From Portulaca oleracea (taxonomy: Eukaryota; Streptophyta; Magnoliopsida; Caryophyllales; Portulacaceae), in contig CM055871.1 of assembly GCA_029582165.1 (NCBI GenBank), positions 26,308,802 to 26,372,801 of the forward strand: a stretch of 64,000 nt of DNA. Direction: 5' to 3'. Numbering within the stretch: the stretch's first letter is position 1; each line of letters opens with the position of its first letter. Position numbers and translations under genes: made by a program. Under the pieces are notes generated by a model, which was not told the DNA's origin, made no database searches, and worked only from the letters and a program-made list of their open reading frames with translations. This document shows positions 6,188 to 61,331 of the stretch, one piece after another.

Positions 6188-6709
6188 TTTTTTTTTCTTT
6201 CATTTTGCCCCTTATCCACTCACAGCCTGGGTCGCTACCTAGTAGTAGTAGTCTTTTCCAGTCCACCCTTTGTCCCTTTGCATTGTCTGATTTAATAATA
6301 ATGGAATCCCAAAAGTCTGAACCAACGACCAGACCAACTTCTCCCCTATTCCTCATTCCCTCACATTTTTCTCACTTTTTAAATTCTCAATTTCTCCCTC
6401 ATTTCTTCCTTTCCTTTCCTTCCCTGAATTCCGAAGAATTCACATTTGTCAGTCAACCAACACCCTCTCCCTTCTTTCTTCACCTTCTTTTCCCCTTGAA
6501 GAAGCACACACTGCTCCAAAAATGGCGGACTCTCTTTCTCTCTCCTCCTCCAAATGTCCGTCCTCTCTCTCTATACTGTCGTCGTGTTTCTCTCTCCTCG
6601 CTGACGTCAGCTGGAAGAATGCGTCTTTTTTTCATGCTCAATTGTTTTGCTTGTGCAGATTGATCGCGGTTGATTGCGAGGGTTTCGGAGGTGTTCTTGG
6701 CGAGCGACT
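6188..6709 (+). promoter_or_regulatory. Promoter and 5' leader of the STY-like kinase gene
   Basis: A pyrimidine-rich tract (about 6340-6560), of the Y-patch kind found near plant transcription starts, leads into the coding region. A perfect palindrome ctgacgtcag at 6601-6610 contains TGACGTCA, the core bound by bZIP/TGA factors. A pyrimidine-rich acceptor-like site ending in gtgcag at 6653-6658 would fit a 5'UTR intron, but I cannot place the matching donor. I see no TATA box I would trust. Confidence 0.5.
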
Positions 6710-6719
6710 ATGGAGTTGA
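6522..6719 (+). other. Upstream ORF overlapping the kinase start
   Basis: An ATG in a strong context (aaaaatggcg) opens a 65-codon Ser-rich frame that ends at 6717-6719, overlapping the kinase ATG at 6710 in another frame. If it stays in the mRNA it should repress translation of the main frame. If a 5'UTR intron ending near 6658 is removed, part of it disappears. It could also belong to an alternative first exon. Confidence 0.5.
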
Positions 6720-9700: not shown

Positions 9701-10152
9701 TTTTGCATCTCCAGGAAATAGGAGATATTTTTGTGATTTTTCTGTAATATTTTTTGATCTTCAGCTTATTTTATCTTATTTAAATACTTCTTGTGACTTT
9801 GTTCTTTGTAGACCAAACCAGAGGATAATGAAGAGCACCTGGCTCAAGGTGTGTTATCTGTTTCAAAGCTATCTTCAGATGCCAATCATGAAGGACCTGT
9901 ACATGAAAGGTCATCTATTTCTTAGGTCTATTTAAGAGAACGAAAATTTTAATCGTACTGGCTTTACTTTACCATTTTCTCCTTCTCTCAATGTGTTTGC
10001 TGTATTACCTTTTGGCTCTTTTGTAATTATAGTTTCCTTTATTCACTTATGGTCTTTTGGAACAGGAATGATGAAAGGGAGTTCGAACCCTGTTCCAAGC
10101 TTGAAGATCTTAATTTGGAGGTTCAACAGGGCGCTGGTGAGAACGAAAAAAG
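6710..10152 (+). CDS. STY-like kinase, exons 1-4: N-terminal region and linker
   Basis: Exon 1 (66 codons plus 2 nt) has a Ser/Gly-rich start, then a conserved block with N-E-E-A-L and A-H-F-N-R-L-P-A. Exon 2 continues [14 protein letters not shown] and K-R-P-V-F-H-V-R-C, a block shared by STY8, STY17 and STY46 and placed here before the ACT domain. The split codon at the exon 1/2 joint reads AG+T, giving Ser where homologues have Arg. Exons 3 and 4 are an acidic, poorly conserved linker. A strong-looking donor at 9849 (caag/gtgtgt) was rejected because it breaks the phase with exon 4; the weaker donor at 9910 keeps it. Confidence 0.88.
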
Positions 10153-40987: not shown

Positions 40988-42110
40988 TTTCAAGCAAAAC
41001 CATTACTGATCTAGTTGTCTCTTTAGCTCATAAGGCTTTGATTACGTCGCCGTATAAAGCTGTGCTCTTTTGAGGGGTGCTCAATCTATTGGTGAGGGTC
41101 CTAATAAAGTGGTTGTTTATGATAGTGAGAGTACTTTTAGTGCTCTGTCTGGCAAAGTGGTAGATGCGGTGGTTTCTTTTTCGCTTTAGGTTCTTGAGCA
41201 CTCCTTTCATAGGGTCTAGAAAGTTAGGTGTAGGCAGAAAAGAAATCTGATATTAGTGTGAAATTCTAAGTGGCAGTTGGTCACAAAGCTTCATGTAGGG
41301 CCGTTTCGAGCTATTATGGTCATATTAAAGGAAAGAAGAAGCTATATATATCTCTAAGTCGTAAATTCAGTAGTGAAGATGAGGTTGAGAATAATGTAGA
41401 AAGTTTGAAGGATGTTGTAGATATCTCCCTAGATAAATTGGATGAGGAGACGCATAAAGCGATGAAGGTTACAAGTGTATTAAAATTGACTCGCGATGAT
41501 CAAGAGGCTGTGACAAAGGTTTTCGAGGAATCCGTTTCAAGCAAATCCATCACTGATCCAGTTGTCATTTTGGATGTTCGTAAGATTTCGATTACGTTAC
41601 GGTATGAAGATGTGCTCTTTTGAGCTAGGGGTCCTCAATCTAATGGTGAAGGTCCTAATAAGGTGGTTGTTTCTGATTCATACTTTTAGTGCTCCGTTTG
41701 GCAAAGTGGTAGATGAGGTGATTTCTTTTTCACCCCAGGTTCTTGAAGACTCTTTTCATAGGGTCCAGAAAGTTAGGGATATAGACAAAAAAGAAATATG
41801 AAATTAGTGTGGAATTCTTAGTGGCAGTTGGTCAATAGAGCTTCATGTAGGGTCGTCTCCAGCATTTTTGGTCATATTAAAGGAAAGAAGAAGCTAATCT
41901 TTAATTCGTAAATCCAACATTGAAGATCGGGGTTGAGAATGATGTAGAAAGTTTGAATGATATTGTGGATATCGCTCTGGATAGATTGGATGAGCAGGTG
42001 CGTAGAGCGATGAAGGTTGCAGCAAGTGTATTAAGATTGATTCATAATGATCAAGAGATTGCCTAAGACTTTCAGGGAAGATTGGCTAGAATAAAAGAAG
42101 AAACTTGTTA
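40988..42110 (+). repeat. Two tandem copies of an unrecognised coding-like sequence
   Basis: Copy 1 (from 40988) and copy 2 (from 41535) are about 547 bp apart. Shared landmarks are tttcaagcaaa, ctaataaagtggttg/ctaataaggtggttg, ggcaaagtggtagatg and ttaaaggaaagaagaagct. The best open frame is 41270-41623 (117 codons); copy 2 has stops at the same place. It might be a LINE or a captured exon, and I cannot tell which. Confidence 0.6.
41270..41623 (+). pseudogene. Open frame of unknown origin in the tandem copy
   Basis: A 117-codon frame, acidic in the middle (S-S-E-D-E-V-E-N-N-V-E-S-L) with Asp/Lys-rich helices after it. It has no domain I recognise. The duplicate at 41820-42070 is interrupted by stops and frame changes, so selection on the protein seems unlikely here. 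Confidence 0.3.
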
Positions 42111-42299
42111 GTTAGACGTTTTTTTTAATTATTTTTTTTGTGATCATTGTGCTGTATTTGTATTGTAAAACTGTTGTACATTTTTTATTGTTTTATCAAC
42201 TTTGTTGCAATACTCTATGACATTTTTTCGGCCTTTAACCATTGAAAAACAGAACTAGCTACCAAACATATATAACATCACAACTCTTTCATCAAAATT

Positions 42300-42560
42300 T
42301 ACACATATAAGTACGTACATTTATTTATTAATTTTTTCGTATGATCGATAACTAAATAAACATAGAAACAACTATAGCTATGTTTTATTGCTCAAATTCA
42401 TACACCAACTAATTTTCTCCAACAAAACCTGTGTCTTGATAATTTCTATATCTTAATTTCCTTGAATCTTCCCTATGTTTGTCTCTCTTAAACCTGCAAA
42501 ACATGCAACCGACCAACAGTCATTATTCCCCTTTTTACATGAAATATTGGGATCATGCAA
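42300..42560. repeat. Duplicated block downstream of gene A
   Basis: It contains cgtatgatcgataactaaa, ctatgttttattgctcaaa and ttttctccaacaaaacctgt, which recur in the same order at 47660-47870 (unit B) and 53500-53705 (unit C). It is non-coding and marks the tandem segmental duplication. Confidence 0.85.
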
Positions 42561-42601
42561 CATATATAGCTTCACCATTGTTAACCAATATGTTCTTTTT
42601 T

Positions 42602-43707: not shown

Positions 43708-44175
43708 CTATGGGCGGGAAGTACAACGAGGAAGTGGAGCATCATCAAAGTCATCCTCTTCTCGAGGTGGCGGCGGTGGTGGAGGGGGCGGCGGTGGTGG
43801 CGGAGGAGGAGGAGGAGGTGGTGGCGGCGGTGGTGGTGGAGGTGGAGAGCCAAAGACAGTGTCGATGAAACCCTTAGTTCCATCGGCGACACTACCAATC
43901 AATCCTGTGGTTCCATTAGCTAAAGCATCCACACCTTTATTAAGAGCACCCCCTAGGAACAATGACTGGTTGTAAGAAGTTACGGGAGGAGGTAGTAATT
44001 TTCGAGGGGCAGAATTGGAATAAAGAGTGTTGTTGGTATTATTATCATTATCTGGGACTGAGAATGCCAAGTAGGGCATAATACAAAGGGAGAGAAAGAT
44101 CACCACAATCACAGAAGACATTGTCAACTCTTTTTGCCTTCTTCTCATCTTCTTCATGCATATGCATTCATGCAT
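43708..44175 (-). CDS. Small secreted proline-rich protein, copy A
   Basis: I do not recognise this protein; I describe what is visible. The 155-codon frame starts at 44175, with alternative ATGs at 44157 and 44148 closer to the start shared by the copies (M-R-R-R-Q-K-E-L). A basic N-terminus is followed by a hydrophobic signal peptide (about residues 19-38, cleavage expected after A-F-S). Then come an Asn-rich segment with the glycosylation sequon N-N-T, the conserved blocks S-N-S-A-P-R-K-L-L and S-Y-N-Q-S-L-F-L, a Gly/Ala-rich stretch, a run of more than 25 prolines, the acidic E-E-D-D-F-D-D and the tail L-P-R-C-T-S-R-P. It is intact, single-exon and has a TATA box. Extensin-like or peptide-precursor roles are both possible; the function is unknown. 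Confidence 0.75.
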   Translation of the reverse strand: MHECICMKKMRRRQKELTMSSVIVVIFLSLCIMPYLAFSVPDNDNNTNNTLYSNSAPRKLLPPPVTSYNQSLFLGGALNKGVDALANGTTGLIGSVADGTKGFIDTVFGSPPPPPPPPPPPPPPPPPPPPPPPPPPPREEDDFDDAPLPRCTSRP

Positions 44176-44330
44176 GCATACAATTAGTTTTTATGTAGCT
44201 ATAAGTAGCTAGTTTGTGTTTGGTTATGTATGTCTCTATCTAGCCAATGTCTTTTCCCTTTTATAGAGTGATTGCATGTACCTAGTCGCCTAACATGTAT
44301 ACTGCAAAATACTAGGGTACGTTGTTATTG
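44176..44330 (-). promoter_or_regulatory. Promoter of gene A, shared block
   Basis: On the minus strand a CATGCAATCAC is followed by CTCTATAAAAGGG (44256-44268) and then ACATTGGCTAG. The TATA box is about 80-110 bp from the start codons. The same block precedes B and C and, decayed, D. Confidence 0.8.
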
Positions 44331-45210
44331 GGAATTTTGTGGGTTTTGAAATTAATCGTTTTGCCCTTTTTTCAAATTAAATGTTACCATCCATGAAGTT
44401 TTTTTGGGTCCATGATCTAGATAGTTAAAAAATGTTTATTTTTCCGACTTAGATTGTATTGGACTAAAGTAAACTGCTTTATTTAATCTCCTTAATTTGT
44501 TTTTTTTTTTGATGTTTTGGTTTATTCATGTGCTTTTCAAGATGTATCATTTCCCATTGTTTTCTTGTGAGATACTATATATCGTGACAATATTTCCCTT
44601 TGTATTAATTTTTGCTATAATAGGTACGTGATAGATATATTTCCCTTTGTTTTAATGGTGTTGTTAAACCCATCCAAAAAAAAAAAATGGTGTTGCTAAA
44701 AATTCATCCCAGTGCAATTAGAAATTTCATGTTTTAGCTTTGAATTCCAATAATGGTTGAGCACTTAATATTGGATTCCGGGTTATTGACTTTAATGGAT
44801 GAAACAAGAAGCAAATTGACCATAAAGGATTAGGATGACAATGAGATCCCAAATTGTAAATACGTGGGGAGCACCAACGCTGACGTGGTATATAATTTGT
44901 TTAATTTTTTACTTGAAATATCTTGGAAATTTTACATCAAAAAAATTGTCATGGATTATTCAAGTTGTAACCATGATTTGACACTAAATAAAACTATGGA
45001 TTATTAAAGTTGTAACTATGGTTTGACACTGAGTGCATAGAGGAAGATAGAGGGCCCAGATCGAAGGAGAATGTGAGGAGTTTGAAATTAGCGAGCCACG
45101 TAATGAAGAAGAAGGAGTTTACATCACCAAATTCAAGTGACACATTTACATAAGCAATTCATCAATTTCTCCCCAATTTTCATAATCAAAACAGTGGAAA
45201 CAAACATTAA

Positions 45211-45830
45211 TGTTGAGTTTTGTGGCCCATTGGATCCTCGGTGGGGTCCAGATCGAGAGAAGAATCGGGAATAGTGAAGAAAGGAACAATGTTGCGGAGC
45301 CGAAGAACCCAGGCGCTACCCTTCACCATTGGGCGCTGCCAGCGAGTAACACAACGAAGGAAGTCTTGAAGACGCTGCTAGCCCCCCCTTTGGCCGACTG
45401 TTGGCTGCGACGGTTCCCTTCTTTTCTCACCATTTAATATTATACTTGTATCTCCACCTAAACTACACCAGAGCAAGAGAGAAAATATTGAGAGGGAAAA
45501 ATGTCTCACCAATATTTTCCCGAGTGAATCCTGAGAGAGAAAGATTGAGAGTTATGAAGGAGAGACATTTGTGTTGTAATCTCCTTTGTGGATCGCATCA
45601 CATCCTGTGATGGTGATCTGGTTGTACTCTTTCTTTCTCATAGTGGATTGTTTTCTGGCTGTTGCCGTTCGTGAGTTTTTCTCCGAGTTCTTCGGTTTCC
45701 CACGTAAACCTTGTGGTTGTGTTCTCTTATCGCTCTTATTATTTTGTTCCTGAATTTTTTCGTAATTTCCGTCATCTCAATTCGATTTATTTCGCTTCCG
45801 CTGTTACCTTGCTACTTATTTTCTCTAACA
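45211..45830 (+). repeat. Copia-type LTR nested in the long-TIR element
   Basis: It begins tgttgagttttgtgg and ends ctctaaca, and is followed directly by agtagtatcagagcc, a diverged tRNA-Met primer-binding site. It is therefore a 5' LTR in + orientation with the rest of the element missing. No 5 bp target duplication is seen. It contains a gggcgctgccagcg motif like that in the LTRs at 22-25 kb. Confidence 0.75.
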
Positions 45831-45918
45831 AGTAGTATCAGAGCCTCACAAGGGGTATCTAAAGCCTAACAATTAACCAAACCAGGAAAACCGGAGCAGA
45901 TAAAGCATATCAAAAATA

Positions 45919-46161
45919 ATGGTTACTGCAAATACTAGACCAATGACATTTTGTTTCCACATGGCTTCACCTTCCCCTCCAAAACCTAAAGTCCATCTTA
46001 AACTTTTAGTCATTTTCTGCAATACCCCCAAAATTTTCTTCCCCCATGAACTCGTCAAATTCGCCGAATTTCATCCAAAAATCCATTACGTATCAAAAGA
46101 AGACAAACCCATTTTAAAAGAGCCAAATTCAAAATTAAATGAGCTTGTCGAAGAGTATTGA
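45919..46161 (+). pseudogene. Open frame, possible captured fragment
   Basis: An 80-codon frame, P-K-P-K-V-H-L-K-L-L-V-I-F-C-N-T-P-K-I-F-F in its middle, ends at 46161 just inside the right TIR. It reads like real protein but I do not recognise it. Being inside a TIR element, it may be a captured host exon. Confidence 0.3.
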
Positions 46162-46511
46162 TCCGATAGAGAAGATTGGAGGGGAAATTTGCAGTCCTGA
46201 ACACTGGAATTTACGAGTACTTGTCATGATGGGTGCATTCAGTGTCAAATCATGGTTACAATTTTAATAATACATGATTTTACACAGTGGTAAATCATGG
46301 TTATAACTTGAATAAATCATGGGAATTTTTTTTTGGCGTAAAATTTCAGGACAACTCAGGAACAAAATAAAAAAATTAAATTTAAAAAAGTCATGCCATG
46401 TCAGCCTTGATCATCCCCGCATATTTTACAACTCGAATCTTATTGTCTTCCTAATCCTCCATGGAGGATCAATTTGCTTCTTAAGCCATCAATTAAGATC
46501 AATAACCTTTC

Positions 46512-47874
46512 ACGATTTTGTAACTAAAATGGTTAGGTGATCGGAAAAAAGTTAGAAAATTGATTCAATTGGGTTTAGATAGTTTCAAACTAAAATCAGT
46601 ATTAGAAATTAAAAATTTCAAAGAACTATGCTCGCACATAGGAAAGTGATATCCATTTCAGTGACTTTCTAATTTTCTAATGGCGCGCGGAGTTGTAAGT
46701 TTGGTTGTAGTTCTGGCTTCATTCGTGGGGATCCATGAACTGTTAAGAAGCGGCTTAAAGAGAAATGAAGAAATGAAAGAAAATGTTAAATTTTAGTGTT
46801 TTAATTTTGCTGTTTTTGTCTTGCTGTTTAGCTATGTTGCTTCTTTGTCGTTTATTGTTTATTCGCCGTACTTGTCTTTATAGTTTTCTCAGCGTTGGTG
46901 TTGTCTCTTTAGTATGTTTTGACTTTCAATAATAAAAAAAATAAAGATTTGATTTAAGTCGAGTTAAGATGTCCTAGTGAACTACATAATGAGGGTTTGC
47001 TTGCAGTACCATTGTCTAAATGTCTCAACAGTCCACATATCTAAATTCATTTTAACTAGGGTTGTCAAAGTTTGGTTCAGGTCATTTCTGATACAGATGA
47101 ATAGGACATTGGATAAAAGTTGATGTCCGATTTTATTCGGGTATTTTTCGAGTCGAACAATTTGGATAAGTCTAAATTTTCATCAAAATTGGGCTCGGTT
47201 AATAGGAAAATGGAAAACACTACCGTGTCCGAATTTTTAATCAAATTGGTGTAAGTCAAAATTCGGACGAGAGATCTATGACTATACCTAGTTATCTTCA
47301 AATCATACTAAATCGAATATTTGAATCAGATACTTTTGTTACAGCCTATCAATTCAAAATTTTAATAGGATACTTTGCTTTATTATTTCACAGTTCTACC
47401 AAGCTAGATCTCTACTACTATGCCCTTTTTTTTTTTTTATCACTACTACTACTAACTATGCCTCTAAGAAGTATGAGTTCCCCATTGTTATCGTAACTAC
47501 CAACCCATATAATCACACAACTCTGTCGTCAAAAGTTATATTTTTTTTTAACAATAGATAATAGTTCAACATGTAGGGGATGGAAGGGTGGGGAATTTAT
47601 CACTAAGGCAAACCATAATCAACTCTCGACAAAAAGATACATATATATAATAACTACATGTATTTATTTATTTTCATCGTATGATCGATAGCTAAACAAA
47701 CATGGAACAAAACGAGCTATGTTATATTGCTCAACCTTATACACTAACTAATTTTCTCCAGAAAAACCTGTGTTTGATAATTGCTCTATTTTAATTTCGC
47801 TGAACCTTCCCTGTATACATTAATTCGGCTCTCTTAAACCTGCAAAACATGCAACCTACAGTCATTATCCCCTT
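46512..47874. repeat. Duplicated flank of unit B
   Basis: No gene. It includes blocks shared with the other units: 46520-46640 (gtttagatagtttcaaac), 47000-47060 (tttgcttgcagtaccattgt) and 47660-47870. The block near 46790-46930, rich in tttgctgtttttgtc, may be the 3' tail of a LINE also seen near 42100 and 53000. Confidence 0.6.
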
Positions 47875-48355
47875 TGTTAGGAAAGTGTCCCAAACTCACC
47901 CAGTCTCTTGATCCCACAATTATTTGTTTCCTAATTATATTAGGATATTATTTAGGTTTCCTTATTATGTTAGGTTTCCCAATTGTATTAGATTCTAAAT
48001 CTAATTGGAGTGGGAGTCAAGGTAGGTTTATAGAGAGTTTCCCTATAAATAGTGGGTCTAGTTCACCTTGTTTGGTGTGACCAAGTTTGGGGTACCTCCT
48101 GTAGGAGGAGGTGTATTCTGATATTCAGAAATTTCGTATTCCCAATGGTGAGAGAGGTTTTGTTGAGAGTTTTGTTGACTACCAATAGTGGATTCGTTTG
48201 TGCTTGTGCCACTCGTAGTTTTTTTCCCGATTTTGGTTTCCACGTTAAATTCTTATACCCTTTATTCTTGCATTTAGTTTTTTCTCGATATCCAGTAGTC
48301 ATCTTATTTTTCGCTTCCACTGATCAATTCTGCTCTTATAATTAAAACCCTAACA
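47875..48355 (+). mobile_element. Solo LTR, copia-like
   Basis: A 481 bp sequence starting tgttaggaaagtgtccc and ending aaaccctaaca, flanked by ccctt and ccttt. Unit A has the empty site (attattcccctttttacat), so the boundaries are well supported. A TATA-like ccctataaatagtgggtc at 48043-48060 would be its promoter. Confidence 0.85.
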
Positions 48356-49106
48356 CCTTTTTTCTTTTACATCAAATACGTACTGGGATCATGTAACATG
48401 GCATGGCTTCAATTACCATTTACTAACCAATTAAAGCAAAATAGGCCGAATCTGGTTAATTAGATTGAAAATGAATTTTCATACGTTTAATGAATTTCTT
48501 TTTTGGTTTAGTGAGTTAGATGTCAAAGAATAGTACGTGCTCCCTCTACTTTTCAACCAGCTTTTTATTCTTCATATATAATATCGATCTATCACTTTAA
48601 TGAATTTATTTCTCATACATTTTAATTAATTTCTATTCTTCATCATCTATCACTGTATAGTTTCAATATAATATTCGGACAAAAAATTATGATCGTACCT
48701 AGTTATTTGACTTATTTCTAAACCAAACTAGACCGGATATTCAGATCAGACATGTTTCTTATAGCCTCTGAATTTAGAATTTTAATAGGATATTTTGCTT
48801 TATCATTTCATAGTTGAAAAGTACAAGTACCATTTATTTTATCATAAAATATCAAAATCAATGTATGTTGAGCAAATTAACTTGTTACAACCTATGACAG
48901 TTGATTGCATTAGTGAGACATAAAATTTTTTGACGGATATGATTCAATTTTGATAAATTAATTGTATGAAATTTTCAAAAAATATTCAACTATGATATAA
49001 TTTTCATTTTTTTTTCATATTTCTTTCTCCAAATTAAACTTTAAAAATCACAAATATTGTGTAATTGAGGCCGGTGGTAGTAAAATGAGCATAATATATA
49101 TTTACT
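48356..49106. other. Non-coding part of unit B
   Basis: It contains ggccgaatctggttaattag (about 48443), shared with 42901 and 54141. Otherwise AT-rich without a gene. Confidence 0.5.
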
Positions 49107-49457
49107 TAAGATGGTTCTTAACCATCTTACATTAGTCATATTTCACATTTTTATAACTTTTATTAATAGTTTCTTTAATAATTATATATATTTATCAATT
49201 ATAATAATATAATACTTATTAGCTAGGTCAAAAAATATAATAATAGCCTAATTTTATCAATCATAGTAGAAAATGCACATTTTAGACATAGTTTTATATT
49301 TATGAAATAAATATAAACAAATAATTATTTTTAAATTATTTATAAGTTGTAGTAACCCTAAAAATAATGAAACATATATTTAGAATGATTTAAATACACT
49401 TACATTTAACTTTATTGGTGATTTTGAAAAAATGCAAGATGGTTAAGAACCATCTTA
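49107..49457. mobile_element. MITE with self-complementary ends, unit B only
   Basis: The left end taagatggttcttaaccatc and the right end gatggttaagaaccatctta are inverted copies of each other, and each is nearly palindromic alone. The 350 bp between is AT-rich without coding potential. Not present beside genes A or C. Confidence 0.75.
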
Positions 49458-49535
49458 CGTCAAGATGTTTATCATTTTTCGATTTACTTAATTACCTTGA
49501 AGTAGAGATTATTATTATAAAACAGAAATAACAAA

Positions 49536-50027
49536 CTATGGGCGCGAAGCGCAAGGAGGAAGTTGAGCATCACTAGGAGGAGGCGGCGGCGGCGGCGGCC
49601 AGAGGCTCTTGTGGGGTGGTGGTGGTGGTGGTGGTGGTTGTAGTATTGGTCGTAGTAGTGGTGGCAGTTGTGGTGGACGAAGAGGACGAAGTAGTGATGG
49701 TGGTGGTAGTAGTAGTGGCGGCAGTCGCGGCAGTAGAATAGGCGGTGGAGGAGATGGACCACCAAGGACAGTGTTGATCAAATCCCTGGCTTCATCCCAA
49801 CCTTTAGATAAAGCATCCACACCTTTATTAAGAATGCCCCTCATGTATAAGGACTGGTTGTAAGAAGATATGGAAGGTAGCAATTTCCGAGGGGTAGAAT
49901 TGGAATAATGAGTGTTGTCTGTATCATCATCTGGAGCTGAGAATACCAAGTAGGGCATAATACAAAGGGAGAGAAAGGCCACCACAATCACAGAAGACAT
50001 TGTCAACTCTTTTTGCCTTCTTCTCAT
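49536..50027 (-). CDS. Small secreted proline-rich protein, copy B
   Basis: A 163-codon single-exon frame. It must start at M-R-R-R-Q (50027): the ATG upstream that other copies could use is out of frame here because of extra bases. The signal peptide is nearly identical to copy A. It shares Y-S-N-S-T-P-R-K-L-L, S-S-Y-N-Q-S-L and L-N-K-G-V-D-A-L-S-K-G-W-D. The proline-rich part is longer and mixed with Leu and Arg, then S-D-A-Q-L-P-P-C-A-S-R-P. The acidic E-E-D-D-F-D-D of A and C is missing. The promoter block is intact. Function unknown. Confidence 0.72.
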   Translation of the reverse strand: MRRRQKELTMSSVIVVAFLSLCIMPYLVFSAPDDDTDNTHYSNSTPRKLLPSISSYNQSLYMRGILNKGVDALSKGWDEARDLINTVLGGPSPPPPILLPRLPPLLLPPPSLLRPLRPPQLPPLLRPILQPPPPPPPPHKSLWPPPPPPPPSDAQLPPCASRP

Positions 50028-50195
50028 CTTGTATCTTCATGCATATGGATGCATGCAATTAGTTTTTATGTAGCTATAAGTAGCTAGTTTGTGTTTGGTT
50101 ATGTATGTCTCTACCTAGCCAATGTCTTTTCCCTTTTATAGAGTGATTGCATGCACCTTGTCACCTAACATGTATAGTGCAAAATACTAGGGTAT
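50028..50195 (-). promoter_or_regulatory. Promoter of gene B, shared block
   Basis: Minus-strand TGCATGCAATCACTC leads into TATAAAAGGG (about 50131-50140). It is almost the same as in gene A, including the upstream ACATGTTAGGTGACAAGG. Confidence 0.8.
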
Positions 50196-50640
50196 GTTTT
50201 TTTTAAATTTTTTTTTTAATTTGGATTTTTGCATTTACCAACTCTTGGTTTTTGACATTAACTTTTTTGCTATATATTTTCAAATTCATTTTTATCAATC
50301 TTAAGGTTTTTAATGTGTATTATTTTCCTTTGTTTCTGGATGAGGTATGCGTGACAATATGTTTCATTGATTTTTGATCAAAAATATCCCTGACATATCC
50401 TTTTCTCGCTCCTCCTCTAATACATCAAGCAAGTTTATCCTTTTTTTCTAATTAATTATCAAATTAATTGTCTTTTTTTTTTTTATAGGACCCATTCAAT
50501 AAAATAGGTTGTCAAACAATCATCCTCCTTTTTAGATAAAATTGGTTTATCAATTAGAGAGGGTTGACTTGATGTTTTGGTAGAATGCACTCCCGATTAA
50601 AATCGTCATTGTCGAACTTTTGACGCCTCCATGTCTCCGC
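50196..50640. repeat. Upstream DNA shared by genes B and C
   Basis: 50380-50570 matches 55500-55690, with aggacccattcaataaaata and aaaattggtttatcaa in the same order. No gene. Confidence 0.7.
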
Positions 50641-51940
50641 CAAGGTTTCCTTGTCCTATTCTTCTAGTAGGGCTAGCAAAATTTTGGCTGACTTGATAAT
50701 CCGGTTTTGTCCGACCCAGAAAAAATTGAGTATGGTCATCAATCCATCCAAATTTTAAAATCGGGCAAGGTCGGGTCCAAGTATGATCGGGATCAGGTTG
50801 TCCAAATTCTGAGGGGTAAATCTGAGTTCGTTCATTTCCGGCAATCGGACAATGCTAGCACGTGATTTGTCAACAAACTTGGGTCAACTTCTAAATTAAC
50901 TTTATGTATAATTGGGATCGGACAATGTTCAGTCATTTCAACACCAAATATATATATGAACTTGCCTTTATATATAATTAGAATTTGGACATTCGGGTTC
51001 GAACATCAGACACCCGGGTTCCGGTCTGGGTTTGAGTATGTCCTCAGTGTCCGAATTACTTATTGAACAGGGTCCGGGTAATAGGTTTTTGATCGAATGA
51101 TCGATTTGACCGAACACAAAATTACCTGGACCCGAATATTTGCTAGTCCTATCTTCAAGCAAGGGCTTGGTAATCACATACACAACCCCCAACGTGGTCG
51201 ATGATGATCGATAAAGTGCACCTTCTTCTACCATCTTCTGAAATTCAATCTGTCTAACTTATCTAACTTTTGGATATTCGAAGTGAAATCCTTCAAAAAT
51301 GTCATCTCTCCTATAAGTTAAAGATTGTTGGAAAAACAAAGAGTGTAGGATGGGTATTACCTGGATAATGAGAGAGTCAGAAGCACGCCTACTCTCTTTT
51401 GATTTATATATCAACCGTATATAGTCACATAAAGGATACAACCTAAGAGAAGGCGTTTAAGATGGAATGAATTGAATGAATGAGACAAATAGAATCCCTA
51501 TTTAATTATAGTGCTATAAAGACACCTTTTGGATAGGACAGATAGGATCAAGGCAACCCTTTGATTGGATTGTGCCTTATCATTATAGACAGAGCACTTA
51601 AGAAATCCGAACCAATATTATCTAGATATACATATATGAAGACTTGAAGAAGATGAACATTCATGAAAATTTAAAGAAATTGTACCATTTGGCCTGACAC
51701 GGACTGTATTGCCAAAGACATGGTCTGTGTCATGCACAAAAGTCTCAATTTCGTATTACATTATTTGACACGGTCCGTGTCAAACATGACACAACCCCGG
51801 CTAGATCAAATACTCAAATACTGGGTCTCCGACTACCCACATGGCCCGTGTCATAACTTGCACAGTCCATGCTACCTTAATTAGGCCTTTTATGCTCGGA
51901 AAGTCATCCGATGACTTTCGAGGCTCTCTTATACCATGTT
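50641..51940 (-). mobile_element. Copia gag-to-PBS remnant in unit C
   Basis: 51240-51430 matches 37490-37680 (tatctaacttttggatattc, tttatatatcaaccgtat) and 51640-51940 matches 37940-38230, including the decayed primer site. It is the same copia end as beside unit A, carried along by the duplication. The coding part is unreadable. Confidence 0.7.
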
Positions 51941-52053
51941 GGAACTTGGTATGTATTATAATTTTTTATGTCCCTTAGCTCAATACACACACGTACACTT
52001 GAAATATCCCAACAAATATTTGAACGATTAACTTGCTTAATTATTCTTGTTGC

Positions 52054-52153
52054 CTTTAAGGAGTTGTAGTGGTTCATAAGACTTCCCTTTGTACTGATGT
52101 TAGCTTTAAGGAGTTGTAGTGGTTCATAAGACTTCCCTTTGTACTGATGTTAG
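52054..52153. repeat. Tandem pair of 50 bp
   Basis: ctttaaggagttgtagtggt and the following 30 bases occur at 52054-52103 and 52104-52153 without a visible difference. Unit A has one copy (about 38340), so this doubling is recent. Confidence 0.9.
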
Positions 52154-53704
52154 TATATCATTGTTTGTGCTATAATAAGTTGTAGATATATTTTCCTTTG
52201 TTTTGAGGAAAATTGGATAGTGGTGCATCGTACTTCAGCTCTTAGGATTGTACTAAAACGAACTTTAAAATTGTATCAATTATAATAAATCAAATCGTGA
52301 AACTATTGGACTAAAATGCTCTGCCACCAAGTTGGGTGAAAACTAAGTCGGAGGATTGTCACAGTTCTGTGTACTACAATCTAATGATTGAAATATTTCA
52401 ACCATTATTATACTCAAATATGTTATACTATGATATACTAAACTTCAACTCATTGAATGTTAGACCTACCGGAGTCACCAATATGCATGTCATACTTTGG
52501 TTTCATATATCCAACTTGATGGTGTTGTCTTAGAATCCAATAATTTCATAATTTGGCGTACTGTCATATAATTTTAATGGTCAGTTATCACAATTCCAAA
52601 GCTTAAAATACAATGCATTACAATTCAATTTTTCATGTTTCAGTGGTCTTGTTAAAAAATTTGTCCCATTGCAATTACAAATTTCATATCTTAACTTTGA
52701 GTTCCAATAATTGATAATGAACAAATTGAAGTTTTTGTTGAGTTTGTGTTTAATAATATTGATTGAAGACTAACATGGGTCGAATAATGGGAAAAAAGTT
52801 AGGGAATTGATTCCTTAATTTGGGTTTAGATATTTTTAACAATAATATCAATAAGTTAGAAATTAAAATTTGAACGATCAAACTCCTCATTCGAGGAAAA
52901 GTAAGATCTATATTCAGTCACATTCATAATTTTGTAGTTAAGGCTTTCAGAGATGATATGTTAGAATAAAAGAAGAATCTTGTTAGATAGCTGCTTTGGT
53001 TATTATTTTTTTGTGATCATGTTGTCGCGAGTTGTGCTATTTTTTTTTTTGTTTTGCCGGACTATTGTTGTTCTGCGCTATTTTACGGATTGTGTAGCAT
53101 CTTTGATGTCTTTTTAGTCTTTTTGATTTGCAAATCATGAAAAGAAAGGAAAGTCAAGATGTCATATATATATATATATATATTATGAGCGTTTGCTTGC
53201 AGTATTTTTGTCTAAATGTCCGAATTGTTCACACATCAAAATTCATCTCAAATTAAAATTTTTACATGCTTTAATTTTTAACAGGATATTTTGGTTTGTG
53301 CTTTCACAGTTCTACCAAGAAAACGAGGTCTACTAATACACCTTTAAGAATCGGGAGATTTCACCATAGTTGAAATTTTTTTCAACTATGGTAGAATTTT
53401 TATTAAGAATTATGAATTAATTCTCATTCTCAGTGTAATTTGTATCATATAACTGCGCAATTCTCTGTCGTCAAAAGTTACATAACTACATTTATTTATT
53501 TTGATCGTACGATCGATAGCTAAGCAAACATAGAAACAACTGTAGCTATGTTTTATTGCTCAAATTCATACACAAACTAATTTTCTCCAACAAAACCTGT
53601 GTTTGATAATTTCTCTATCTTAATTTCCTTGAACCTTCCTTATGTTCAGCTATCATAAACCTGTGAAACATGCAACCGACAGTACATTAAACCCCTTTTT
53701 TTAC
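52154..53704. repeat. Duplicated flank of unit C
   Basis: No gene. It matches unit A at 38400-39110, 40770-40920 and 42340-42520. An (AT)n run lies at about 53164-53183. Confidence 0.7.
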
Positions 53705-53870
53705 CAAGGTTGTTAATATCGGGATTCTAACCTGGATCTATAGGGTAGTTAGAATTGGAATTAACCCACGTAAGTTCATGGATCGAAGTGTAGATACTAG
53801 AATCGCATTGAAGATTTTTTGGATCATAAAATTGTAATATTATAAATCAGGATCGGGATTTTAATAACTA
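53705..53870. mobile_element. 165 bp MITE-like element, copy 3
   Basis: It has the same ends and interior as the intron 6 copies (caaggttgtta to ttaataacta), with about a fifth of positions changed. It sits in the same C/T tract where unit B has the solo LTR. Confidence 0.65.
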
Positions 53871-54439
53871 ACTTAAAATCCCCTATTTTTATTTATTTAT
53901 TTGTCCACTTAACTATCTTTTTTCGTTCTTAATTATTTTTCATTTTATATTTAATATAATTTTTATCAATTTATATCTATATTCTTAATTCTACATATAA
54001 ATATTTACCAATTTAAGTAATTTTCTAAATTTTTTTTCCTAAATTTGATGGTTATCTAGGTTTCTCCTAAATCTCCTAAAGAAAAAATAAAAAGGCATGG
54101 AGGTAGTAATACCTTTTACTAAGTAATTAGAACAAAACAGGCCGAATTTGGTTAATTAATTAGATTGAAAATGAAATTTTTTCCCTAATTTTGATGGCTA
54201 TCTAGGTTTCTTCTATTTGATTGTGATGTGTACAAGTGTGTTTTAGCTCTAATTTCTCAAAGATATGGCACACATGTATGCATTTCCATACTACGGCAAG
54301 CTTTTCTTAGTTTCTTAATTTTTCGAATTGATTTTCAGAGGTTTCCCTTTTGGATTTTTAATCTCTAAACCGGTTTTCAAGAAGTTTTTACACATCCGCA
54401 TATCTTTGACTAACAATTGATTCAATGTTTTTAATTGAT
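53871..54439. other. Non-coding part of unit C
   Basis: AT-rich; contains ggccgaatttggttaattaa near 54141, shared with units A and B. No gene. Confidence 0.5.
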
Positions 54440-54671
54440 TCATGGTTTTTAATTAACGCTTATATCTTTGACAATTTGTCGCATTATATTTTATCAAAAA
54501 TTTATAATGTGATATTCCTACAATAGTATTTTTCATTATGAATCTAATGCTAGTATTTATATATAATAAAAAAATTATCTATATTTAAGAAATAAATGGT
54601 CAAATTTTCAAAGTTTTGATTAACCGGTCCATAAATCTAGAATGTGATAGATAAAATAGGAAGAAGGGTGT
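54440..54671. mobile_element. Stowaway-like MITE remnant next to gene C
   Basis: It shares caatagtatttttcattatg and aaatggtcaaattttcaaag with the MITE at 43370-43647 and has the same position relative to the gene. The left TIR is no longer visible. Confidence 0.55.
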
Positions 54672-54745
54672 ATTTTTGATCAATTACCTTGAAGTAGATA
54701 TTATTATTCAATTCCAAAGTGGAAATGATAATCAATGGGCTGGAA

Positions 54746-55226
54746 TTAAGTGCAAGGAGGAAGTTGAGCATCATCAAAGTCATCCTCTTCTCGAGGTGGC
54801 GGCCGCCTACGACGGGGCGGTGGTGGTGGCAGTGGAGGTGGTGGTGGAGGAGGCCGGAGGAGGTGGTGGTGGAGGTGGCGGAGGCGGTGGTGGTGGAAAC
54901 TGAACAACGGGTGCAGGTGGTGGTGGTGGTGGTGGTGGAGGGCCTCCAAGGACACTCCCTAACAAGCCTCCTGCTACTCCTCTACCAAGAACACTCAGGA
55001 ATAAGGACTGGTTGTAAGAAGATAAGGGAGGAGGTATTAATTTTCGAGGGGCAGAATTGGAATAAAGAGTGTTGTTGGTATCATTATTATTATCTGGGAC
55101 TGAGAATGTTAAGTAGGGCATAACACAAAGGGAGAAAAAGGCCACCACTAGTAGGGTGGCATTATTCACAGAAAACATTGCCAACACTTTTTGCCTTCTT
55201 CTCATCTTCTTCATGCATGTATGCAC
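54746..55226 (-). pseudogene. Small secreted proline-rich protein, copy C (frameshifted)
   Basis: The frame from 55226 keeps the family start, signal peptide (with three to four extra residues, N-N-A-T), the N-N-T sequon, S-N-S-A-P-R-K-L-I and S-S-Y-N-Q-S-L-F-L. It then runs through prolines into a Ser/Thr-rich end and stops at 54807 (139 codons). The family acidic segment and tail (E-E-D-D-F-D-D-A-Q-L-P-P-C-T) are still encoded just downstream in another frame, down to 54746, so the proline codons carry a frameshift. Even in that frame a stop after C-T removes the final S-R-P. The promoter is intact, so a protein with a changed tail could be made. A sequencing slip in the GGT/GGC repeats is the main alternative. 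Confidence 0.7.
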
Positions 55227-55370
55227 TTAATTTCTGTAGCTATAATTAATTACTAGCTAGCTGTGTTTGGTTATGTCTCTACCTAGCCAATGTCTTTTCC
55301 CTTTTATAGAGGGATTGCATGCATGTACCTTGTGCCTAACATGTATGGTGCAAAATACCAGGGTATGTTC
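55227..55370 (-). promoter_or_regulatory. Promoter of gene C, shared block
   Basis: Minus-strand TACATGCATGCAATCCCTC leads into TATAAAAGGG (about 55299-55308). This copy has the full RY repeat CATGCATG. Confidence 0.8.
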
Positions 55371-57479
55371 CTTTGGATGTTAGACATTAATCTTTTGCCC
55401 TTCTACATAATTTTTTTACTAGCCTTAGGTTTTTAATATGTATTATTTTGCTTTGTCTTTTGACAATGTGTTATTTGTGACAATATTTTTTCGATAATTT
55501 TCGGCCAGAAATACCCCTTGCATATCTTTTTCTCACTCGCCCTCTAATTCATAAAGCAAATCTATCTCTTTTCTAATTAATTAATTATCAAATTTAATTG
55601 TCTTTTTCTATAGGACCCCATTCGATAAAATAGGTTGTCAAATAACTATCCTCCTTTTCAGATAAAATTGGTTTATCAAGTAGAGATGGGGGAGAAAAGG
55701 AAAACAAGGGGTATTTTTGACCAGAAACCAATAAAACTTATAAAAGTATTGTCATGTTAACCCCTTAGCAGAAATGGAGAAAAAATAATACAATAAATAC
55801 ATGTTATAAACTTTAGGGACGGTAAAAATTAAGCCATCTCTTTTAGTTTGGTAGGTTTAACTTTACCTAACCTAACCTCATATAATCTTACGTTACGTTA
55901 CCTTACCTTACCATAGAATAGAATTTAGTACAATTAGATAATTTATATTAAATTTTTTTTATTCAACTCATAAAATTTATTTAAAATAAAAAGAAACAGG
56001 TGATGTCACGTTTAGTTATATTTACTACTTTCCTTACTTTACTTTTCTTTCATTTCCTTACTTTACCTTACTTTATCTAATTTAATCGTACACCCTTAAA
56101 AACAAGGCCTTAACTCATCACATGGGTAGTAAATACATAAATCCCCATATTCTTATTTGTGATTTTGTTTGGCTGAAATTAGACTATGAAGGAGAAATAT
56201 CATCATATTTGGCGCCTCCAACCCAATTCTACAAATTATACGTCCATAAATAACTTAAATAGATTAATTTATTAACTGATAGATTCAATAACAAATTGAT
56301 AAATTTTCCCATATGGATGAATTTTGATAAATTATTTATGATTTATTTTTTTTAAAAAACTTAACTTATTGAGATAGATATTTCATGATGTATCATATAA
56401 TTAACTAAATTCACCTATCAATTAAATTTAATTTGTCACCCAAATCATCATTAGTTAAGTTTAGGACTATGGTACTTTACGATCCTGAGGTCGGGGTCCA
56501 ACTTCTGAAAATTTAGATAAATATATAAATTCCAACTTATGCATATTTACGTAAATTAATTTAAAGTTATTCAAATAATACTCTTTTCATTGTAAAATGA
56601 TATTTGAAATGAACAAAGGCTTATATGATTTTTTGAGAAATAAAAGTTTATGATTACAAAAAAGAAAAATAGTTTAATTTTTCAGTATGTTGGAGGAGAG
56701 GAAGTAAGGCATAGGGAAAACAATAGTAATCTCATTTGGATATGGCTAAGGATCATGGACAAACTCATTTTCCTATTTACTATACTATATATAACTGTTT
56801 AAATGTATAAAACGTTGAATTTGCTTAGACACACAAGAAAGCTTGTTTCTCACCTTATACACTCAAATATAGATGTAGTCTAGACCAAGAATGAGTGTAT
56901 ATGAACTTTGATGACACGAACTTGGATTCTCACTTATGGGTTAACACCCCTTCGATTTGGAATAATCTTAAACTTGTGATCATCCGAGAAACGTACAAAG
57001 TATATGCCTATTGAAAGTAAGTTATCCTCTGAATTTTCAATTAATTAGTGTATATGAACTTTGATGACCCGAACTTCTTTGAACTTTGTATTCATATTGA
57101 TCAACTATGCACATTACAAACATATATCTTTTAACTTAAGTGTTAATACTGATATTATTATCTAACCTTGTGTCCTTATCCTTGGTAAGTGTTTCAGAAC
57201 TCTAAGCCCTAAGTTCCTTTCTGCGGCCACACTCATGCTTACATAGGTAGTCTTTGAATTTTGCTACATTTGTAATTAGGCTCCCATAAAGTCTATTAAG
57301 AGTTTTACCGCTCAAACTCACACCATTACAGATATCAAGCATCACTCACCTTCGAATGAATAAAAATCGATGCTTCCTACTATTAGAGAACTCCGTACGC
57401 CTTTGACCTTTAGAGATTGACATTATACTAATAGTAAAATTGAGTCATTGTTGTGAGTTGTAGAGGTTTGGGCTTTACC
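55371..57479. other. Intergenic sequence between genes C and D
   Basis: The first 300 bp match the DNA upstream of gene B. The rest is AT-rich with no gene. 55890-56100 has repeated ttaccttac/ctttac phrases. Confidence 0.5.
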
Positions 57480-58880
57480 AAATCCTCTCCCCTTTGAAGT
57501 AGTACTTGTCACCAAGTCTTTAGATAACTCTTTGGTAAAAGGACCTACTAAATTTTACTTTAACTTGACAAAACTCAAAGCCACTACTCCATCCTTAACC
57601 AACTGATGTATATATATAGGCATACCTTAAAGCAATGTGCTTTGGCTTGCCATTGTAAATATAACTATATATAATGTGGCTAAGTAGTATTACTATCATA
57701 ATGAATTGTAATAGATGCATGGTCAATAATTGACCTATACCCTAGAGGTATTTCCAATAATAAGTTCCTAAGTCATTCCCTTTCCTTGCATATAAGTAAC
57801 AATGCTACTAATTCTGAAGCCATGGTGGAATCCATATACAAGCTTGTTTCTTAGAACAATAGAACCCCATGAAACCCTCCACCACCTAATAGGAACACCC
57901 ATCCCCATTGTAGCAGAGTATTCTTCCCTTTCACTTATCCAACTTGCATTTGAGTATCCTATTAAAATCGAAGATTCTCCTTTGTAAGTTAGTTGGTAAT
58001 CCTTAGTCTTAGCTAGATATAATACCCTACGAATAGTGAACCAATGTGATTTGTCTGGGATACTTGTGTATCTAATTAGCTTACCAATCGCGTAAGCATT
58101 GTTTGGCGTTGTACTTATCATAGCATACATGCATGAAACTTCCAATCATCTTAGCATACTTAAGTTGACCAATTGATAAACTCATATTATTTCCCAATTT
58201 CATATTTGGACTATACCAGAGCAGTATTCTTGCATCCAAAGTTGTCTCAAATTATAATGATTTAGAAATAAAATTATTCCATCATTAATTCTAATGATCA
58301 TAATACTAGAATCGCATCCGCTTGCTCCATGTATATATTTCATAGAAAAATTAGCCGATAGAAACTCTTTGATCTTATTAACTTGTTCCACGCCGGTCTC
58401 AATGATCAAAATGTCATCAAAGTAAAGGCATATGATAACCCCTTTGCTATTCTCAAACTTAGAGTATATGCACTTATCCAACTCGTTGATCTTACAACCA
58501 CTTGAAAGCACTACCTCATAAAACTTTTGATGTCATTGCTTAGGTGCTTGTTTAAGTCCTTACAAGGACCTTAATTTACAAACTTTTCTTTTCTTGACCT
58601 TCAACAACAAACCTTTCAGGTTAATCCATATACACCTTTTTTTCTACTTCAGTACCATTTAAGAATGTCGTCTTGACATCCATTTGATAGATTACTAGTT
58701 TATGGATGGTTGATAAAACCAACAATACTTGTATTGAAGTTATCCTAGCTACTGGTTTATGTATGTTATACCATACTTTTAAGTAAAACCCCCTTCCAAC
58801 TATTCGGGTTTTACCTCTCATCAATACCACCTAGCTTCTTTTTCTTCTTAAAGATCCATTTAGAAGTGATTGGCTTACTT
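57480..58880 (-). pseudogene. Copia reverse transcriptase and RNase H fragment
   Basis: Right to left: K-W-I-F-K-K-K (58840), M-D-V-K-T-T-F-L-N-G (58650-58690), the polymerase motif Y-F-D-D-I-L-I (58420), then the RNase H part with N-A-S-W and V-S-W-G-S-I-V (57790-58000). Several stops and shifts. No LTR, gag or integrase. It is not the same copy as 33-38 kb, since both contain these regions. Confidence 0.85.
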
Positions 58881-58904
58881 TTAAGTAAAACCCCCTTCCA
58901 ACTA

Positions 58905-59381
58905 ATCGGGTTGGGTTTCAAATGAGTTGCGAAAAGGTTTGACTTGTTCCTCTCCCCTAAATGGTTTGAAATGAACTTTGAACTGTTTTGACAGTTAGGG
59001 GTAGACATTATTGAGGTTTTCCCCCTCATGTTGTGAATGTTTTGTTTTCAGGTGAAGATAAATTATGTGATGGGGACGGGCAATAGAAGTGAGGACGTTG
59101 GAGTTAGCCGTTTGAGAATAAAGTTTAGTTTATGTTTAGACTTGAAGTTTAGTAATGTTGAGTTTATGTTGTTATAGAATTCGAAGTTCTTTTCGTTATT
59201 AAATTAAAGTAAATAGTTATCGCTTGTTGTTAGTTTCCCTTCCTTGTATCTCTTCGGAGGTACGGCAATAACGCCCAAGTAAATAAAATGAGAAAGAAAA
59301 AAAAATGAGACTTCCGCTGTTAATGTTAGTCAACGTTTGATTTTGACCGTCAAGTTTAGATCTGAAATTCCGGGGCGTTAC
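58905..59381 (-). repeat. Possible LTR of a Ty3/gypsy element
   Basis: On the minus strand it begins tgtaacgccccggaatttc, a start seen in many plant gypsy LTRs. I could not fix the other end or find a partner. Confidence 0.35.
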
Positions 59382-60035
59382 AAAATAATTAAATCGTTTT
59401 TAAAATTCCTAAAAACCATCCTAAAATATAACATATTTTTACTCAACCGAAACACATTATAGCTTCCCACAAATTTAGGACATACAAAACATACAAAATT
59501 CATATATATTACATATTAATATTTATCATAATGCTCAAGTTAAACAAATTTTACATGCATTAATATATATATATATTTTTTGCACAATAAATATAATAAT
59601 TCATATTTAAATTTAATTCAAAACATATAAAATTCAACATTATGCTCAACCTAAACATATTTATATATACTTCTCAATATTATAAATTAAAACTAAAACT
59701 AAAACTAAAACTAAAACTAAAACTTAAACATACACACAATTAATTAAACTCAAACTAAAACATACCAACAATACATTACGAACCCTATTTGCACAAATTA
59801 AATTGGAACTCAACATCCAAAATATATTACAATTCATACAAATTAACTAAACTACTCAATTTTTCAACTTATATGCACTCAACTAAACTAGATCTAAAAT
59901 TAAACTCAACAAAAACGAAACAAGAATACAAATATTCAAATTATTCGTTTTTCATCATATTTAATTTATAAATTAATCACTTTTCATAATATTAATCAAA
60001 TTATAACAGATCTGAAACAAAAACAACTGATAAAA
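59382..60035. other. AT-rich sequence, part of the CACTA element to its right
   Basis: No gene. A short (aaacta)n run of about six units lies at 59689-59724. Confidence 0.4.
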
Positions 60036-60566
60036 TTACCTGATTTTTTGTTGAACTGGCGGCGTGGACGGACCTTCTTCTTTAATCTCTCTCGCGTGCT
60101 CTTCTCTTTTTCGACAAAAATGGCTGTCGAAAATGATACAACCCCAATTTTTTTCAGTTTTAGTCAAATATGACGTCTGTTTTAGGGTATAACAGACACC
60201 TATGCCAGTAATAAATACGCGCACAGCAGTCGAGATCTGCAGAAAACCAGACGAGATTTTTTTTATTTATTTTAAAAACTGGCGTCTGTTTCACACTAAA
60301 ACATACGCCTTTTTGGTAATTGGCGTCTGTTATAGTTTGAAACAGACGCCATTTTTGACAATAAATTAAAAAAAATTGAAATTTGCATACGTTGAATATA
60401 AAAAAGGTATAATTATTTTACTGACAGATTGGCGTTTGTTATAAACAAACAGACGCCCATCTGTAATTTATCTTGTTTTTTAAATTCGATTTCTTTGATT
60501 TAGTGTCTGTTCCTTAAACAGACGCCAATTTTCAGATGCTAAACCACCCAAATTTTACTAGTGATT
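60036..60566 (-). mobile_element. CACTA (En/Spm-type) transposon end with hairpin array
   Basis: The minus strand begins cactagtaaaatttgggtgg at 60566. Behind it, five inverted pairs of ggcgtctgtt and aacagacgcc, each forming a small hairpin, lie between about 60170 and 60530. Subterminal arrays of inverted short motifs are typical of CACTA elements, where the transposase-associated protein binds. The other end was not found in the window. Confidence 0.8.
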
Positions 60567-60895
60567 ATTTCTATGGCTCACACTTTGGCTTGTAACCTTT
60601 TGAGGGTATGGTGGGTTCCTTATAGCCCAAATCACACCCTTTACATAGATTTAGTCTCTACTCTCTAATGCTCTTTTCCATATTGCTCCATTAATTACCT
60701 TGAAATAGATATTAATTACTCTGTAGCTAAAAATATGGCAGATTTAAATTTTTAAATTAGGGATGTTTAATATATTATTATATTCATTAAATAAATATAT
60801 AATGCATAATCTTACACATAATCATATTAAAATTAAACATTTTCTTTTTGGGCATAGCCAACCTTACACCATACGGTAATACGGGTAATAATAAA
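60567..60895. other. Region downstream of gene D
   Basis: It has the family's 3' sequence (attaccttgaaatagatatt, about 60692), separated from the D stop by roughly 150 bp of AT-rich DNA absent from A-C. Confidence 0.5.
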
Positions 60896-61331
60896 CTACG
60901 GGCAGGAACTGCAAGGAGCAAATAATTGATCGTCACCAGAGTCATTGTTAGGTGTGTCGTCCCCTGTTGGAGGTGGTGCTGGTGGTAGTGTTGGCGACAG
61001 CGAAGATGGTGGTGGTGAAGGAGGGGGTGGTGGTGGAGGTGGTGAAGGGCCGAAGACATTGTTGAAGAAGGCCTTGGCTTTATCCCAACCTTTAGATAAA
61101 AACATCCTTTCCTTTATTAAGAATATCCTCTAAGAATAAAGATTGATTTGAAGAAGAAAAGGGTGCTAGTAATTTGGGAGAGGGAGAATTGGAGAAAGTG
61201 TTGTTGGTATGATCATCTAGGATTGAGAATGCCAAGCAAGGCATACAAAGGGAGAAAAAGGCCACCAGTAGAGTTAGGGTGGCAATCACATAAGACTTTG
61301 CCAACTCCTTTTGCCTTCTCATCTTTTTCAT
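60896..61331 (-). pseudogene. Small secreted proline-rich protein, copy D (frameshifted)
   Basis: The frame from 61331 has the family start (M-K-K-M-R-R-Q-K-E-L), a signal peptide, N-N-T-F-S-N-S, Q-S-L-F-L and L-N-K-G-K-D, then stops at 61092. A second frame from about 61105 continues the homology (L-S-K-G-W-D-K-A, a shorter proline tract, G-D-D-Q-L-F-A-P-C-S-S-C-P) down to the stop at 60896. Compared with copy B there is one extra T in a run of five near 61100. It is the most diverged copy; its TATA box is also changed. Probably dead, unless the T run is an assembly error. Confidence 0.75.

Follow-up and report, generated by a model that had tools for sequence, protein, structure and literature searches.

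In secreted proteins of plants, contiguous prolines are a known substrate for hydroxylation and arabinosylation (PMC5073881, PMC11015965). Here we analyze a cluster of duplicated genes for small proline-rich proteins in a 64,000-nucleotide stretch of the 1.13-Gb genome of Portulaca oleracea (assembly GCA_029582165.1, contig CM055871.1, here C4, positions 26308802-26372801; "the window", whose own numbering is used for all positions without a prefix). The nearest published look-alikes are the short Populus extensins (EXTs) PtEXT16/17/18/33 (Potri.019G015800-016000, T139000; PMC5073881). Like the proteins described here, these are short (107-116 aa) and have a signal peptide (here a probable one) and contiguous prolines, and their consecutive gene numbers suggest a tandem group, as is found here. 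The tables of that study list no Arabidopsis BLAST hit for the four proteins and give male-catkin expression for PtEXT17 (PMC5073881). Unlike the genes in the window, and compared by description only, they have one or two SPPPP repeats (PMC5073881). The grape PEHK and poplar PELPK/LPPLP proteins are likewise described as secreted, proline-rich, narrowly distributed and expanded in tandem; they are defined by short repeated motifs, whereas the family here has one variable proline tract, which is pure in two copies, A and A5 (PMC3149072, PMC5073881).

The cluster has a recognizable gene structure with a common leader, is constrained as protein, has been duplicated both in tandem and at the scale of a segment, and carries lesions in part of its copies. 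We favor, with a probability of about 60%, the reading that these genes represent a lineage-restricted family of secreted hydroxyproline-rich, extensin-like proteins in which a helix, a proline rod carrying glycans and a tail with cysteine would act at the wall or cell surface.

Gene copies and reading frames

A translated search of the window with copy A recovered copy B (62% identity, E-value 1e-36), copy C (72%, 1e-27) and copy D (56%, 2e-17), all far above chance, and placed four duplicated copies on the minus strand where the original prediction, made from the sequence alone, had put them (Table 1). The open reading frames (ORFs) and translations also agree with its count of two intact genes (A and B) and two frameshifted ones (C and D). 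The ORF of copy A can be counted from its most upstream ATG at 44175 (155 aa), from the ATG at 44157 (149 aa) or from 44148 (146 aa), which is the ATG found family-wide. Copy C is a 135-aa ORF whose tail, REEDDFDDAQLPPCT, is still readable in a different frame, and in copy D the frame is lost near 61098, directly before the tract, with tract and Cys tail again readable in a different frame; because so much of the coding sequence past the lesion can still be read, the lesions of C and D look young. A fifth C4 copy, E, is diverged yet open over 193 aa and lies ~10 kb beyond the end of the window (matched part C4:26383218-26383550). A, B and E showed no lesion.

Whole-genome searches with copies A, E and D5 led to the same nine places, five on C4 and four on another chromosome-sized contig, C5. 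The C5 copies are A5, with an in-frame stop within the codons for NQS; B5, whose first ATG is out of frame and whose second, in-frame Met precedes the hydrophobic stretch; D2_5, which is truncated; and D5, with a stop codon in the tail. Lesions are thus present in six of the nine copies (C, D, A5, B5, D2_5 and D5). These searches gave no convincing tenth copy, and the counts are lower bounds, some matches at E > 3 not having been examined; the remaining weak genome matches had E-values of 3.3-9.4. Away from the cluster, an initial pattern search of the DNA found only three matches, each with three mismatches. Several weak matches were rejected: those to copy E on C2 and C23, which we read as the starts of genes that we take to be cytochrome P450-like; C2:49826163, which falls in a Harbinger-type gene; C12:13196511, an unrelated frame; and a match on C9 (E 6.1), where there is no long frame.

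Protein-coding constraint

Indels divisible by three made up 26 of 33 in the N-terminal block (N-block) and 6 of 32 in the leader (Fisher P 1.4e-6, which is optimistic because the compared pairs share copies and hence are not independent). This count covers eight chosen pairs of eight copies, with E left out, and some of its non-triplet indels arose where the aligner split a single event. A one-ratio codon model fitted to the N-block of all nine copies, with D taken only up to its lesion, gave a ratio of non-synonymous to synonymous substitution rates (dN/dS) of 0.63, with twice the log-likelihood difference (2 delta lnL) from a ratio fixed at 1 being 10.3. The mature part gave 0.50 (2 delta lnL 13.6) and the signal part 0.80 (1.3, not significant). 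Kappa was likewise fixed, at 2.5, in the null model, and with two degrees of freedom the hand-worked P-values are ~0.006 for the whole block and ~0.001 for the mature part.

Between homeologs on C4 and C5, dN/dS was 0.86 for A/A5, 0.36 for B/B5 and 0.10 for D/D5, and the three pairs pooled showed 23 synonymous changes over 184 sites and 32 non-synonymous changes over 566 (one-sided P 0.0025). Among 17 pairs chosen from the 36 possible, dN was below dS at a one-sided P < 0.05 in nine. In the proline tract of A/A5, the 26 aligned codons show eight differences, every one at a third position, which is supporting evidence only. Indel phase and the codon-model dN/dS together therefore indicate that the copies are constrained protein genes; the dN/dS of 0.63, fast but constrained, and the indel phase fit the description of the family as fast-evolving and nevertheless protein-coding.

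Protein organization

The predicted proteins open with a basic start, a hydrophobic run and, judged by eye, a plausible cleavage site, with a helix at residues 5-32 in a low-confidence model. This N-terminus is probably a signal peptide, which would imply secretion. It is followed by a stretch rich in Asn, which has NxS/T sites in all five proteins counted (A, B, B5, D5 and E), by SNSAPRKL-type and YNQSL-type motifs, and then by a helical block, the proline tract and the tail. Both motifs had been proposed as conserved blocks, and both are exact in A and C; the first reads SNSTPRKL in B and SNSPSPKL in D, and the second, given as YNQSLFL, reads YNQSLYM in B and SNQSLFL in D. Taken as a whole, the helical block is amphipathic in A, B, D5, D2_5 and E (hydrophobic moment P <= 0.012, 1000 shuffles), whereas copy C, the sixth copy tested, fails this test. 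Together with a low-confidence AlphaFold model that places a helix at residues 62-102, the hydrophobic moment suggests that this block may indeed be helical.

The tract differs in length and make-up from copy to copy, as had been noted for A to D. It is uninterrupted in A (Table 1) and in A5 (26 prolines), is built of Pro, Leu and Arg with two Pro8 runs in B, holds 9 and 14 prolines ahead of the frameshift in C, is interrupted by Ser, Leu, Thr and Ala in D, and consists of broken proline runs in E; a Pro/Leu tract is common to B and B5. The short tail with Cys that had been described for A to D is present in all four, although in C and D only in a shifted frame. It is found in A5 and B5 as well, and is mostly acidic, hardly so in B. 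D5 terminates before the Cys tail, and D2_5 has lost its tail.

Relation to described protein families

Copy A residues 8-110, used as a single-sequence query against a database of 5.8 billion proteins, gave 10 candidates, none at E <= 1, and a seven-row profile gave 3461 candidates in the protein database, none at E <= 10; neither search returned a match from Populus, although Populus proteins are in the database. A control query from this genome, an ALP1-like gene derived from Harbinger, matched 1070 proteins at E <= 0.001 among 7995 scored. Many named plants were among the 120 control matches listed, with a best identity of 80%, so the database contains plants and apparently no close relative of this species; several of the best named control matches come from Malpighiales and others do not. 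Because this and near species are apparently missing from the database, the absence of homologues leaves room for relatives within the same genus or family. In Pfam, A and C had sub-threshold matches only and B and E had none, NCBIfam gave sub-threshold matches only (five proteins), and the N-block of copy A had no match in the PDB. These results fit the earlier designation of the family as unrecognized. No recognizable description of such a family was found in the open-licence literature; a possible connection with the 'leguminosin proline-rich' peptides of Medicago found no support in that literature and was set aside.

The rules stated for hydroxyproline-rich glycoproteins (HRGPs) in the poplar study provide a second comparison. 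Its extensin rule asks for at least two SPPP repeats, a signal peptide is reported for 46 of the 60 poplar EXTs, and the YXY cross-linking motif occurs in 45% of them and is hence not obligatory (PMC5073881). Of the six copies counted (A, B, B5, C up to its shift, D5 and E), only E, with two SPPP, passes the extensin rule. YXY is missing from A, B, B5, D5 and C and occurs once, as YNY, in E. The arabinogalactan protein (AGP) rule of the same study requires at least 50% Pro+Ala+Ser+Thr, and its proline-rich protein (PRP) rule at least 45% PVKCYT or two PPVX[KT]/KKPCPP motifs (PMC5073881). A, B, B5, D5 and E all fall short of both, with 37-44% Pro+Ala+Ser+Thr, 36-42% PVKCYT, no PPVX[KT] and, by eye, no KKPCPP. 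The original prediction of a secreted wall or signaling protein family stands as far as the genes are duplicated, coding, probably secreted and furnished with a proline tract, but most members fail the rules of the named HRGP classes. Like classical extensins, A and B place Ser before contiguous prolines and have a probable signal peptide; unlike them, the proteins have a single tract instead of repeats, set after a conserved helical block, with few SPPP and YXY only in the single form of copy E. We consequently do not file them as extensins: their design appears extensin-like, in the sense that they would work like an extensin rather than be one.

Duplication history and leader

Around the two clusters, C4 and C5 are colinear and mostly 77-95% identical (window 11669-62952 versus C5:39385001-39447998), the product of a whole-genome or large segmental duplication that is rather recent. 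Closely matching gene starts, which look P450-like, are also present on C2 and C23. A DNA tree pairs B with B5 (99/97) and D with D5 (100/99); A and A5 do not resolve as a pair in the DNA tree or the codon tree and were matched by place and flank. Because copies pair across C4 and C5, the tandem array is older than the duplication that separates them. D2_5 groups with D/D5 in the DNA tree (100/100) and has no C4 counterpart, a counterpart of copy C was not found on C5, and copy E is represented on C5 by only its last 15 codons and flank. These gains and losses between the clusters, with the lesions in both, bear out the proposed birth-and-death evolution. A repeated block lies downstream of A, B and C, ending 1.0-1.7 kb past each stop with a period of 5.4-5.8 kb (Table 1), the pattern that unequal crossing-over would give with a unit of ~5.5 kb.

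A related leader lies upstream of all nine starts, weakest in E. It contains a TATAAAAGG-type TATA box ~66-123 bases upstream of the start in eight of nine copies, altered in D, and CATGCA stands directly before the TATA box in six of nine. In the leader, indel, motif-count and DNA-tree comparisons the B5 start was offset by one base, and its leader is shifted accordingly. In the comparison of flanks the end of D was placed ~30 bases off, so identities downstream of D are not used. CATGCA was considered as a hint of seed expression and was dropped, the motif being too common.

Table 1. Positions of gene copies, putative core promoters and repeated spacer blocks in the window
Feature	Position	Strand	Description
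Copy A	43708..44175	minus	open; 155-aa ORF, 27 prolines at 43765-43845, tail REEDDFDDAPLPRCTSRP
Copy B	49536..50027	minus	open, 163 aa; Pro/Leu/Arg tract; tail SDAQLPPCASRP
Copy C	54746..55214	minus	frameshift within proline tract (lower end hand-counted from tail match)
Copy D	60896..61331	minus	frameshifted; TATA box altered (lower end hand-counted from translation)
Copy A putative core promoter	44258..44278	minus	CATGCA then TATAAAAG
Copy B putative core promoter	50133..50153	minus	CATGCA then TATAAAAG
Spacer block, A's copy	42270..42536		80-83% identity among three blocks
Spacer block, B's copy	47632..47875		80-83% identity among three blocks
Spacer block, C's copy	53447..53700		80-83% identity among three blocks

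Other repeats and ORFs were observed around the array. A tandem repeat with a unit of ~540 bases occupies 40988-42563, has further copies in the homeologous part of C5 and overlaps a plus-strand ORF (41270-41623) with a sub-threshold, uteroglobin-like Pfam match. Past the window end, between D and E, two 422-base direct repeats (C4:26373285-26373706 and 26378423-26378844) are 99.3% identical and ~5.1 kb apart, resembling the long terminal repeats of a very young retrotransposon. The minus strand at 22821-24014 holds a gag/pol fragment of copia type that is open over 397 aa, with Retrotran_gag_2, zinc knuckle and Pol_BBD domains. ORF pieces on the plus strand at 6674-18664, one of two having a sub-threshold kinase match, presumably derive from a gene resembling a plant ACT-domain Raf-like kinase (STY46 type).

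Possible function and alternative explanations

Under the favored reading, the protein would be made with a cleavable N-terminal signal, and its mature part would open with the short Asn-rich stretch, possibly N-glycosylated, followed by the amphipathic helix. By analogy with established plant biology, the proline tract may be hydroxylated and arabinosylated to form a stiff polyproline-II rod, and the short Cys tail of most copies could pair proteins through a disulfide. The helix end might then bind a partner or a membrane and the tail end cross-link or bind, with the rod as a spacer whose length and make-up would vary through repeat slippage. The genes spread by tandem duplication of the ~5.5-kb unit before the genome or large segmental duplication, and have decayed unevenly in both clusters since.

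Several findings weigh against this reading. The extensin rule is failed by A, B and B5 (one SPPP each), by D5 (none) and by C (none up to its shift). Eight of the 17 pairs have dN/dS of 0.59-1.31, including 0.86 for A/A5 and 1.31 for A/D2_5. The third-position pattern of the A/A5 proline tract can be mimicked by slippage of CCN units. The AlphaFold model is poor (mean pLDDT 55, pTM 0.21), and the moment of copy A in an 18-residue window is not significant (P 0.10). The Cys tail is absent from E, whose tail is long, acidic and without Cys. Homeologs are 87-95% identical in the leader and 91-94% in the N-block, and for D the flank above the leader reaches 90%; because it is no more alike than the N-block or, for D, the upstream flank, the leader is a shared structure and no proof of promoter function. 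Finally, with lesions in six of nine copies the family may be disappearing.

That last point leads to the strongest competing explanation, which we consider rather unlikely: a formerly functional family that is now dying, in which the constraint would be left over from the past and A, B and E would be the copies that no lesion has reached yet. The lesions in C, D, A5, B5, D2_5 and D5 speak for it, as do the remnant of E on C5, the counterpart of C that was not found there, and the A/A5 ratio of 0.86. Against this, one or two lesions were seen in each broken copy and the remainder can in most of them still be read, the TATA box is retained in eight of nine copies, E is open over its 193 codons at synonymous divergences (Ks) of 0.9-1.4 from A, B, C and D5, and the ratios of B/B5 (0.36) and D/D5 (0.10) point to constraint after the clusters split.

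Still less likely, in our judgement, is a signaling-peptide precursor from which the recurring C-terminal tail (REEDDFDDAQLPPCT, DAPLPRCTSRP) would be excised, with the proline tract only a spacer. The proteins are short and probably secreted, their C-termini are similar in A, B, C, A5 and B5, and precursors of this kind commonly form small tandem families. The N-block, however, exceeds the tail in length and is recognizable in all nine copies, whereas the E tail is different, acidic and without cysteine and D5 ends before the tail. We know of no peptide motif that the tail resembles, no peptide-motif library having been searched. Already disfavored, and very improbable, is the notion of non-genes, chance open frames in GC-rich CCN microsatellites beside duplicated non-coding DNA: the tract is microsatellite-like and its other frames are also open over long stretches, but in the non-repetitive N-block the indel phase, the codon models and the conserved frame argue against it, as does the TATA leader common to the copies.

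The favored reading of a secreted, extensin-like family has a bolder form, which we regard as an unlikely extension. The proteins would then be a lineage-born class of secreted rods, each joining an amphipathic helix, a glycosylated polyproline rod and a disulfide-forming tail, and would serve at the cell surface or in the pollen wall as a molecular ruler that can evolve; tract slippage would rapidly reset rod length, selection would hold the two ends, and frame slips in or beside the tract would kill genes.

Significance

The family, which has no recognized relatives, appears to be of a commonplace plant type, with genes for cell-wall-type proteins that look real although partly decaying. Such families are easily overlooked, their tract being of low complexity and the remainder fast-evolving. 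The two homeologous clusters, separated by one large duplication, provide a case with a built-in time mark and show small secreted proline-rich genes arising, diversifying in the proline tract and dying. If expressed, the family would add one more lineage-restricted wall or surface protein, and would overturn no known principle.

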